From Acidobacteriota bacterium (GTDB lineage Bacteria > Acidobacteriota > Terriglobia > Acidiferrales > UBA7541): a DNA stretch of 36,521 bases. Both the position numbers and the translations under genes were made by a program. The stretch spans positions 190 to 36,710 of the forward strand of contig PMHK01000066.1 of the NCBI GenBank assembly GCA_003156635.1, given 5' to 3'. How positions within the stretch are numbered: position 1 is the stretch's first letter; the number at the start of each line of letters is the position of its first letter. The notes under the pieces were generated by a model. That model did no database searches, was not told the DNA's origin, and saw nothing but the letters and a program-made list of their open reading frames with translations. Below are positions 4,666 to 25,026 of this stretch, in pieces.

Positions 4666-5817
4666 TCAGTAGTCTCCACCGACTTCATCAAAAAGCGGCG
4701 TGGTGGGCAAGAGCTGAGCTTTGGTCCCGTCGTGGACCGCGTACTGCACGCGAGCACCATTGGGATGCTTGCCCCACAGGCTGCCCGCGCCGTATTCGCC
4801 GTGTTTATTGAGCGCGTAAAATTGAATGTGGAATTGTTTCAGGCGTTCGGGGAACGCCTGATAGTTGCGCGCGACGCGATGCAGGGCTTCGAGGCAGGCG
4901 TCGGTAGGCGAGGAGCCGCGGCGCATCATTTCGACAATGGTGTGACCGCCGGAAATTTTTATATTCTCTTCGCCGCGGCCGGTCGAGCCGGCGCCGCCGA
5001 CCTCGTTATCGACGAACAATCCCGCGCCAATAACCGGCGAATCGCCGACACGTCCGGCAATTTTCCAGGACAGCCCGGAAGTGGTGGTGGTACCGGAGAC
5101 TTCGCCTTTGGAATTCACGGCGAGGCAATTGATGGTGCCGGTGATCGGATGGGCGACGACTTGTTCGATGTGTTCGCGCCAGGCCATTTTTTCCGGAGTG
5201 TCGAGCAGCGTGGCCAGTTGCGCTTTCCATTGCGGGCTGTCGAGGCCGGGACGCCAGTTTTCGCTGGATTGCGCTTTCCAGGCCAGCCACGCAATCCGCG
5301 AGCGTTCGGTGAGCAGGTTCATGGGAATGAACCCTTCGTCTTCCGCGAACTGCAAGGCTCCAGAGCCGACGATGAACACGTGATTGGTTTTTTCCATCAC
5401 GGCTTTGGCGACGAGCGACGGGTTCTTGATTTTCTGTACGGAGGCTACGGCGCCGGCGCGGTGGGTGGGACCGTGCATCACCGAGGCGTCGAGTTCGACA
5501 ACGCCGTCTTCGTTAGGCAGGCCGCCGTACCCGACCGAATCGTCGTTTGGGTCGTCTTCCACTTTGGTGACGACGGCGAGCGCGGCGTCGAGGGTATCGC
5601 CGCCGGATTTCAAGATGGCCATACCGTCGTCGAGATGGGTGACGCCATTGGCCGAGGAAATGATGATCGGGCGAAAATCCGACGCGGCCGCTGGGCGCGC
5701 GGCGAAGACTCCAGGCGCCGATGCAGAGCTCGTGGCGCCGAACAAACGCTGAGTGCTGGCAGCGAGCGCCGCGCCCAGGGTCGAAAAGAAAAATTTCCTG
5801 CGCGTCCAGTCCGTCAT
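4666..5817 (-). CDS. N(4)-(beta-N-acetylglucosaminyl)-L-asparaginase (Ntn hydrolase), Tat-exported
   Basis: Tat-like RRKFFF signal; TGTINCLAVNSKGEVSGTTTTSGLSWKIAGRVGDSPVIGAGLFVDNEVGGAGSTGRGE with candidate nucleophile Thr at G|TI. Confidence 0.92.
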   Translation of the reverse strand: MTDWTRRKFFFSTLGAALAASTQRLFGATSSASAPGVFAARPAAASDFRPIIISSANGVTHLDDGMAILKSGGDTLDAALAVVTKVEDDPNDDSVGYGGLPNEDGVVELDASVMHGPTHRAGAVASVQKIKNPSLVAKAVMEKTNHVFIVGSGALQFAEDEGFIPMNLLTERSRIAWLAWKAQSSENWRPGLDSPQWKAQLATLLDTPEKMAWREHIEQVVAHPITGTINCLAVNSKGEVSGTTTTSGLSWKIAGRVGDSPVIGAGLFVDNEVGGAGSTGRGEENIKISGGHTIVEMMRRGSSPTDACLEALHRVARNYQAFPERLKQFHIQFYALNKHGEYGAGSLWGKHPNGARVQYAVHDGTKAQLLPTTPLFDEVGGDY

Positions 5818-7535: not shown

Positions 7536-9806
7536 CTACCAACTCCTGGCAATTGCCGCAACGATCCGACCGAGCGCGTCCACGTCGCGCGTGTCGACCA
7601 CTTCGGCGGGAGAATGGGAATAACGCAGCGCCCAACCCAGCGGAATATCCGCTGAGCCATAACGTACAAACGCCGAACCGTCGTTGCCGCCGGCAGTGAC
7701 TCCATACTGAACCGGAATATTATTTTTGCGGGCGAGTTGAATCACGCGTTCGACCAGATCGTGGCGCGCGATGTTCGAGCTGTCGATGGCGCGGATCACG
7801 AAACCGTCGCCGAGTTTCGCATCGCCGAAGCGTTTGGATTCGAGGGGCGAATCGGAGCTGACGAAAGTGTCGACGGCGAAGACAAAATCGGGAGTATGGC
7901 CTTCGGCGGCCAGGCGATTGGCCAGCTTCCCGGCGCCGACCAGGCCTTCTTCTTCGCCGGTGGACCAGACGAAGGTGACGTCGCGATCTTTCAGCGGCGC
8001 GCCGAGGGCCCAGACCGCGGAGAGGAGGGCGGCGGCTCCCACGCGATCGTCGAAAGCGCGGCCGTTGGCGCGAGTGCCGAGCAGCGGGCGATATCGTTTG
8101 GGGATGGTAATGGTATCGCCGACGCTGATGCCGAGTTTGGCCGCGTCCATCGGGTTGCGCGCGCCGGCATCGACACGGATTACATTTTTGGCGTCGGGCT
8201 TTTGCGGTTCGTCATCCGGCCATTTGAAATCGTGAGTGTCCCAGCCGAGCGGCGGCTCGACGATGGCGTCGAGATCGCCTTTGGCGGTGTGCACCAGCGC
8301 GGGATGGCCCTCGAAATAACTGAGGGAGCCGCTGCCGCGCCATTCGACTTCGAGGCGGCCATCGTTAGCGATAGATTTCACGGCGAAACCGATTTCGTCC
8401 AGGTGAGCGACAACGAGAATGCTGGGAGTCTTGGCGGCGGACGGCGTGCCCAGATGGAGGATTAAATTTCCGGCGGCGTCGGTTTCGGTTTTGGCCCATT
8501 TCGGAAGTAGCGAAGACACCGATTGACGGACCTCGTCCTCGTGGTAACTCACTCCATAGGCCTCGACCAAGACGCGAAGAGCGTTGGAGCTGACGGCGGC
8601 GGCTCGGGTGGTGGCAACGGCATTCGATTCGGCAGGAATGGCTTTGGCCACGGATTCGGAACCCTGCAGGTAACGGCTCAGAAGTTGGGTCAGGTTTTCG
8701 AGGTCGCGGGAATCGATCATTTCGGCGGGAGTGTCGGGCCAGGCGGTGGCAATCGCGAGATGCGCCCAATTCGCCGGAAGGGCCGGCATGGCCAAGTAGC
8801 TATTCGGCAGGAGATTCGCGGAGTAATCGCTAGCGAAGGTAATTTTCGCGGAATCGGCGAGTTGTTTGAGTTGGGAGCCGAAGCTAGTGAGGACACCATC
8901 GGTTTTTTCCACGCCGATGAGGACGCCGCTGCCGGGTTCGCGGCGGGGGGCGTGACGCATGGTGGGCATATCGGGAATCGGGCCGCCGGGCAGCAGGCGG
9001 CCAATGTAGATCATTTCGTCGGCGTGCGTCGCGGTGAGGATGCGCTGCAATCCGCGGGCGCCGGTGCGCTGCTGGACGACGAATGCGATGGTGATGGTGC
9101 CCTTAATTTTTGAGGGATCGAGTTGTTTCAAGGTTTCGATCAGTGCCGCAGCGCCGAAGCGATCACCGACGGACGCGCCGGCGAAGTCGGCGCCGCCCAG
9201 GTTTATCAAGCGGCGGTTGATGGCGATGGGGCTTAACAGGTCGACGCCGGCTTTGCGAACTTCGGCGGCGTTTGCCGCGCCGATATCGACGTAGAAATTT
9301 TCGAGGTCTCCGGCCTTGGGAGCGTTCAGATGCGCACCCTGCAGGTGGACGGAGAGGCCGGCGACTACGCCATCGATCCATTTGCCTTCGGTGGTTTCGA
9401 TTTTCACGGGTTGCGCGGCGTAGAGTTCGTTGAAAACCGGAGGCAGACCGAATTGGGGCAGGCGCTGTACGCGCAGATAGCCGTCGGCGGTAATTTCGCT
9501 GACGACGAAACCCGGCTCATCGATGGGAGTGACGATGAGGCGGTTCGGGGAGCCGGCGCCCATGGTGATGGTCACGTTGCCCATGTTGTCGGTCGCCGGA
9601 TGGAAGGCGGCGAGATCAGTGCGAATCGCTTTTCCCAGTTCGCTCTCGTAGCCGGAGACTGCCGGCGTGTCGACCAGTTGCGAGAGGATGTTCTGCGATG
9701 GGTTGTGAGACACGGCCGGAGCGGGAACGGCTTGAGCTGACGCTGAAGAACAAACAAGAAATGCGAAGCAAAGGGTGGACCAGATGAAGGCCAAGAATCG
9801 ATTCAT
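7536..9806 (-). CDS. Secreted tandem M42-family metallopeptidase (degenerate N-terminal domain + intact C-terminal domain)
   Basis: Internal ATG at 9806 gives signal peptide MNRFLAFIWSTLCFAFLVCSSASAQA with GAGGAA SD; C-terminal half has AHLDEIG, RAFDDRVGAAALL, STGEEEGLVGAG, AVDTF, RYSHSPAEVVDTRD. Confidence 0.92.
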   Translation of the reverse strand: MNRFLAFIWSTLCFAFLVCSSASAQAVPAPAVSHNPSQNILSQLVDTPAVSGYESELGKAIRTDLAAFHPATDNMGNVTITMGAGSPNRLIVTPIDEPGFVVSEITADGYLRVQRLPQFGLPPVFNELYAAQPVKIETTEGKWIDGVVAGLSVHLQGAHLNAPKAGDLENFYVDIGAANAAEVRKAGVDLLSPIAINRRLINLGGADFAGASVGDRFGAAALIETLKQLDPSKIKGTITIAFVVQQRTGARGLQRILTATHADEMIYIGRLLPGGPIPDMPTMRHAPRREPGSGVLIGVEKTDGVLTSFGSQLKQLADSAKITFASDYSANLLPNSYLAMPALPANWAHLAIATAWPDTPAEMIDSRDLENLTQLLSRYLQGSESVAKAIPAESNAVATTRAAAVSSNALRVLVEAYGVSYHEDEVRQSVSSLLPKWAKTETDAAGNLILHLGTPSAAKTPSILVVAHLDEIGFAVKSIANDGRLEVEWRGSGSLSYFEGHPALVHTAKGDLDAIVEPPLGWDTHDFKWPDDEPQKPDAKNVIRVDAGARNPMDAAKLGISVGDTITIPKRYRPLLGTRANGRAFDDRVGAAALLSAVWALGAPLKDRDVTFVWSTGEEEGLVGAGKLANRLAAEGHTPDFVFAVDTFVSSDSPLESKRFGDAKLGDGFVIRAIDSSNIARHDLVERVIQLARKNNIPVQYGVTAGGNDGSAFVRYGSADIPLGWALRYSHSPAEVVDTRDVDALGRIVAAIARSW

Positions 9807-21348: not shown

Positions 21349-25022
<3,674 letters not shown>

Positions 25023-25026
<4 letters not shown>

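Follow-up and report, generated by a model that had tools for sequence, protein, structure and literature searches.

One gene of the window, as we call the whole 36,521-nucleotide stretch of acidobacterial DNA analysed here, probably encodes an M42 aminopeptidase that is exported and whose single active site is shared by two subunits of ancient duplication, fused here into one chain. Comparison with its relatives also makes it fairly likely that this is one form of a phylum-wide aminopeptidase, with one site assembled from two M42 paralogues, in which the apparent pseudo-enzyme is a co-subunit that donates a loop histidine in trans.

The 756-aa open reading frame starts at the ATG at 9806, which is served by the ribosome-binding site GAGGAA; a longer open reading frame of 796 aa reaching 9926 is a mechanical extension. 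On inspection of the 756-aa protein, residues 1-24 were found to resemble a type I signal peptide (MNRFLAFIWSTLCFAFLVCSSASA/QA), in agreement with the export proposed in the original prediction. Both halves of the protein matched the Pfam M42 profile (PF05343) far above the cut-off, the N-half at 1.6e-30 over profile positions 1-292 and the C-half at 3.7e-56 over positions 1-290 of 292, and their earlier description as two homologous M42 halves holds. M18 was not the best profile for this protein, for which Pfam gave M42 and then only M28 and M20. The features of the gene are collected in Table 1.

Table 1. Features of the tandem M42 gene, in window positions; residues in brackets or given as equivalents are PhTET2 residues.
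Feature	Positions	Strand	Remarks and basis
Tandem M42 gene	7536..9806	minus	756 aa, exported; ORF list, Pfam M42 matched twice
Ribosome-binding site GAGGAA	9811..9816	minus	4 nt before ATG; sequence
Signal peptide, residues 1-24	9735..9806	minus	cleavage after ASA likely; sequence inspection
N-terminal M42 pseudo-domain, residues 28-385	8652..9725	minus	HMM, Pfam, AF2, Foldseek
Pro94, at metal ligand position His68	9525..9527	minus	N-domain; alignment
Asp96, equivalent of Asp70	9519..9521	minus	N-domain; present in every pseudo-domain
His154, loop histidine (His123)	9345..9347	minus	N-domain; present in every pseudo-domain
Gly214, at bridging ligand position Asp182	9165..9167	minus	N-domain; alignment
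Gln246-Arg247, at catalytic Glu212 and ligand Glu213	9066..9071	minus	N-domain; alignment
Gly269, at ligand position Asp235	9000..9002	minus	N-domain; alignment
Asp358, at ligand position His323	8733..8735	minus	N-domain; alignment
Interdomain linker, residues 386-396	8619..8651	minus	HMM limits; low pLDDT in AF2
C-terminal M42 domain, complete metal site, residues 397-756	7539..8618	minus	HMM, Pfam
His468, metal ligand (His68)	8403..8405	minus	C-domain; alignment
Asp470 (Asp70)	8397..8399	minus	C-domain; alignment
Trp522, at loop-histidine position, His lost	8241..8243	minus	C-domain; alignment
Asp586, bridging ligand (Asp182)	8049..8051	minus	C-domain; alignment
Glu618-Glu619, catalytic Glu212 and ligand Glu213	7950..7955	minus	C-domain; alignment
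Asp646, metal ligand (Asp235)	7869..7871	minus	C-domain; alignment
His731, metal ligand (His323)	7614..7616	minus	C-domain; alignment

Residues were numbered as in PhTET2 via alignment to 1xfo, the chain of which is numbered four ahead of PhTET2. The alignment confirmed that the C-domain retains all five metal ligands, the catalytic Glu and Asp70 (H468, D470, D586, E618, E619, D646 and H731). In the N-domain all five metal ligands and the catalytic Glu212 are replaced, and the Asp of the H-x-D motif (Asp70, here Asp96) alone remains, a pattern that supports the proposed pseudo-enzyme. The replacements of His68 by Pro94 and of His323 by Asp358 had been recognised in the original prediction, but the Glu-Glu pair is replaced by Gln-Arg and not by Gln-Gln: VQ-Q-R-TG of the N-half aligns with VQ-E-E-VG, hence Glu212 becomes Gln246 and Glu213 becomes Arg247. 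Two further losses, of Asp182 (Gly214) and of Asp235 (Gly269), had not been spelled out. A conserved alternative metal site was looked for among the relatives of the N-half and none was found. Complete metal loss may not extend to all N-domains, some of which (L065, L073, L077 and L090) retain several ligands.

The loop histidine, at the position of His123 in a flexible loop of PhTET2, is distributed in the reciprocal manner. Among distinct domains with readable positions, it was present, as was Asp70, in 96/96 metal-degenerate domains and absent from 92 of the 99 metal-intact ones (91 pair members and one clostridial protein, L172), counts that are not independent since C-domains may have lost it in a single early change of His to Tyr or Trp. 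An Alicyclobacillus domain among the 96 degenerate ones falls outside the N clade and its loop alignment is unsure. The seven intact domains that possess the histidine comprise five outside the paired clades (L089, L101, an Anaerolineae single and two from Alicyclobacillus) and two inside, L082 and L083, which are the true exceptions among the 93 metal-intact members of the pair, 91 of them lacking it. The position is occupied in live, metal-intact partners by Trp, Tyr, Phe or other residues, and M42 enzymes outside the pair mostly have both the metal site and the loop histidine. The alignment column is sound, because all but one of the domains have the same spacing of 8 residues from the preceding strand (99/99 intact, 95/96 degenerate). 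The window's C-domain also has a private histidine three residues past Trp522, His525, and in pairwise HMMER alignment it falls on the PPH motif. In the live partner at L097 (2553-3926), the loop that lacks the histidine is extended by almost 60 inserted residues, many of them Pro, Ala and Gln.

A scan of well-filled alignment columns gave the same picture, with the loop histidine in 33/33 N-domains, 17/18 M42 enzymes outside the pair and 2/32 C-domains. Three columns were conserved in N-domains and not in C-domains, namely the loop histidine, a Gly-to-Leu change private to N-domains and a Thr/Ser swap, of which only the His and, weakly, the Thr also occur in M42 enzymes outside the pair. The opposite list, conserved in C-domains and lost in N-domains, includes H468, D586, E618, E619 and H731. 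If the histidine acted in cis, the reverse of the observed pattern would be expected; if it acts in trans, the histidine of the dead subunit and the metals of the live one suffice for a dimer in which one site is dead, and this is the pattern found. Covariation between the domains (mutual information, MI, with APC, on 89 N/C pairs with an effective number of 55) mainly reflected lineage and yielded no informative coupling.

A search with the N-domain gave a match in 55/89 genomes of the window's family, 49 of them strong and six weak via other peptidases, and in 40/396 genomes of an even draw across the phylum at E <= 1e-15. The pair of live and dead M42 domains is spread over the Acidobacteriota; fused copies were found in Terriglobus roseus DSM 18391, in Granulicella, in Candidatus Acidiferrales and also in proteobacterial bins, one of them assigned to Steroidobacteraceae. 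An assembly artefact was ruled out by the recurrence of the pair in dozens of genomes, among them that of T. roseus DSM 18391, which is complete. That genome also contains two single M42 genes (L174 and L181; G488:C1:2661953-2662828 and 3122472-3123347) about 460 kb apart, with identical scores and identical key residues, possibly a recent duplication. The fused pairs of the proteobacterial bins (L157-L168, including the Steroidobacteraceae L167) are probably due to horizontal transfer, unless the contigs are misbinned, and L167, the proteobacterial-bin pair included in the tree, groups within the Acidobacteriota clade.

Outside the window's family each domain often has a gene of its own, and this arrangement is seen in many lineages. 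Such split pairs lie on one strand, with the dead gene first in 16 of 18 and the live gene first in the other two, and the stop and start codons overlap by 4 nt in 12 of the 15 pairs where the second start could be placed. Hydrophobic, signal-peptide-like N-termini were found on both proteins in 18/18 split pairs, as judged by hydropathy and by eye, and a few of the live members resemble lipoproteins. The shared strand, the 4-nt overlap and the joint export-like N-termini all speak in favour of an obligate pairing of the two proteins.

In a tree of 84 domains all N-domains formed one clade (bootstrap 100/99) and all C-domains another (100/98), and the fused and split states interchanged 3-4 times. 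Next to the C clade branches L089, an exported single M42 protein in which both the complete metal site and the loop histidine are present. The tree and the gene arrangements together point to one old duplication that gave rise to two specialised subunits; fusion or separation of these followed on more than one occasion. The original prediction of an internal duplication with a pseudo-enzyme domain was thus right as to the pseudo-enzyme and the homology of the halves, but a recent internal duplication was ruled out: the halves are old paralogues, falling into two clades with 100% bootstrap, and are still separate neighbouring genes in many Acidobacteriota.

The mature chain was modelled by AF2 on 45 fused homologues, which gave a pLDDT of 91 and a pTM of 0.90 for the whole chain; a pTM this high for two domains in one chain means that their mutual arrangement is predicted confidently. 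M42 enzymes made up all of the 50 best PDB matches, and PDB 9a5r, which belongs to the context of M42 paralogue heteromers, was among the structure matches. Modelled alone, the N-domain was again predicted to adopt an M42 fold (pLDDT 90), with TM scores of 0.75-0.85 to TET structures in Foldseek and M42 enzymes as its best PDB matches, so that the model upholds the earlier assignment of the N-half to this fold. Relative to the N-domain alone, the whole chain gained 6 to 11 in mean pLDDT per ten residues, a rise confined to residues 91-110 and 121-150 in mature numbering, the latter stretch holding the loop and its histidine (131, that is His154). This rise lends indirect support to docking of the N-domain loop on the partner domain.

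A histidine acting across subunits has precedent in the same clan. Human DNPEP, an M18 enzyme, has its bound substrate analogue in contact with His170 of the opposing subunit, and its H170F mutant is inactive; the authors noted that the loop histidine is conserved in M42 and inferred a loop-swapped site there also, although the relevant loops are disordered in M42 crystals (PMC3472314). The proposal for M42 came from an M18 structure and was left open because of this disorder. His123 of PhTET2 may lie near the site of the adjacent subunit, as it does in some structures, and its mutants bind substrate more weakly, by up to tenfold (PMC8993905). DNPEP resembles the protein described here in that an opposing subunit's loop histidine completes the active site (PMC3472314) but differs from it in family and in having homodimeric units with two complete sites. 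The M42 TET aminopeptidases (PhTET1/2/3, TmPep1050 and PepA) share the fold, the ligands of the C-domain and the PPH-type loop histidine of the N-domain, and dimers are their building blocks; in the present pair, by contrast, ligands and histidine are split over two specialised domains, and the window protein is exported and, in this lineage, single-chain. M42 paralogues are known to associate, as in the PhTET2-PhTET3 heterododecamers and in YtoP-YsdC of Bacillus subtilis, a documented heteromer (PMC10090944); the PhTET2-PhTET3 particles, unlike the pair proposed here, were modelled from homodimeric blocks (PMC4220976), and the accessible portions of these sources describe no metal-dead partner for either system. 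In M20 PepV a single chain likewise performs the role of a dimer in related enzymes, with His269 of the lid domain placed near the substrate (PMC6271292), but PepV has one catalytic domain and its lid is not a dead copy of a whole enzyme. We found no description of the present M42 pair in the literature on tandem, pseudo- or hetero-oligomeric M42 enzymes or on Acidobacteria, in a search that covered mainly openly available papers.

We propose that the packing of the two domains resembles that of an M42 dimer, with the loop of the N-domain reaching across, so that His154 would bind the substrate carbonyl or stabilise the intermediate at the metal centre of the C-domain. Metals and catalytic Glu would come from the C-domain and the histidine from the N-domain, making one composite site, and hence one working site per chain as against two per dimer. 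The C-domain's own loop would face the dead site, and its histidine would thus be free to decay. Split pairs would be the heterodimeric form, and fused proteins the single-chain form, of the same aminopeptidase, which outside the cytoplasm would remove residues from the N-termini of short peptides. Such an exported, peptide-trimming enzyme is likely because the C-domain is nearest by sequence, among solved structures, to PhTET1. As a counterweight to the shared site, the effect of the loop histidine in PhTET2 is moderate and the C-domains of L082 and L083 retain theirs.

The N-domain might instead be a structural partner only, capping the dimer interface to give a stable single-chain dimer or building a half-active tetrahedral shell, with the loop histidine retained for packing. 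We regard this as unlikely, even though M42 assemblies are built from dimers (PMC4220976), heteromers such as YtoP-YsdC are known, and a fold without a metal site is usual in scaffolding pseudo-enzymes; it does not account for why all N-domains retain the one catalytically relevant residue that C-domains lost. The same point bears on the original suggestion that the dead domain replaces self-assembly contacts, which may be correct but is incomplete, as the loop histidine is common to the dead domain and ordinary M42 enzymes and is lost in the live domain. It is because this histidine is kept in the one and lost in the other that the dead domain looks like a catalytic co-subunit and not a mere scaffold.

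A regulatory or substrate-binding N-domain, holding peptide ends in its dead site and so feeding or gating the C-domain, would fit its retention of the whole M42 fold. The residues of the dead site vary by lineage, however, with many types at each ligand position and no conserved ligand site visible, and the invariant residues of N-domains are mostly Gly, Asp and Glu together with the loop histidine, which leaves this reading highly improbable. Scarcely credible is a functionless second domain degenerating towards loss: N-domains do evolve faster (depth ratio 1.41; the faster partner in 31/32 pairs), but across the phylum they remain open and well-folding, with invariant positions and conserved gene coupling.

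If the shared-site proposal is correct, the pair would be a natural demonstration of loop-swapped, shared sites in M42 enzymes. Because this natural protein carries its metal site on one domain and its loop histidine on the other, the two roles would be separable by single point mutants. The coexistence of split and fused forms in one phylum would also lay out how a homodimer can become an asymmetric heterodimer and then a single-chain enzyme, and the case cautions against dismissing 'dead' peptidase paralogues, which may be indispensable components of active enzymes.

M42 paralogues may lend one another the loop histidine more generally, as partner genes are seen both in Bacillota and beside clostridial L172. 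Operons of three adjacent M42 genes are common in Bacillota (L226-L245), and all 18 of the clusters examined whole contain one gene in which the metal site is complete but the loop is shortened and lacks the histidine, which the other two genes have. L172, metal-intact and without the loop histidine, adjoins a second M42 gene. Alicyclobacillus contaminans (L170, 1273-4423) has three consecutive M42 genes; in the third, Glu212, Glu213 and His323 are replaced, which makes it a second degenerate M42 partner, apparently a separate one.

ABC genes upstream and a deoxynucleoside kinase downstream of the tandem gene are common only to near relatives and no phylum-wide conserved neighbour was found; with no neighbour conserved beyond near relatives, the gene context gives no function. 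Two genes downstream, at 4666-5817, the window encodes an Asparaginase_2-family hydrolase with a twin-arginine-like N-terminus (TRRKFFFS), and a Sigma-70-like factor with a DUF6596 C-terminal domain lies at 661-1998. The open reading frame at 21349-25026 encodes an AcrB-type pump of 1225 aa, the N-terminal part of which looks unusual or inserted, since its best Pfam stretch starts at residue 294 (profile position 142).
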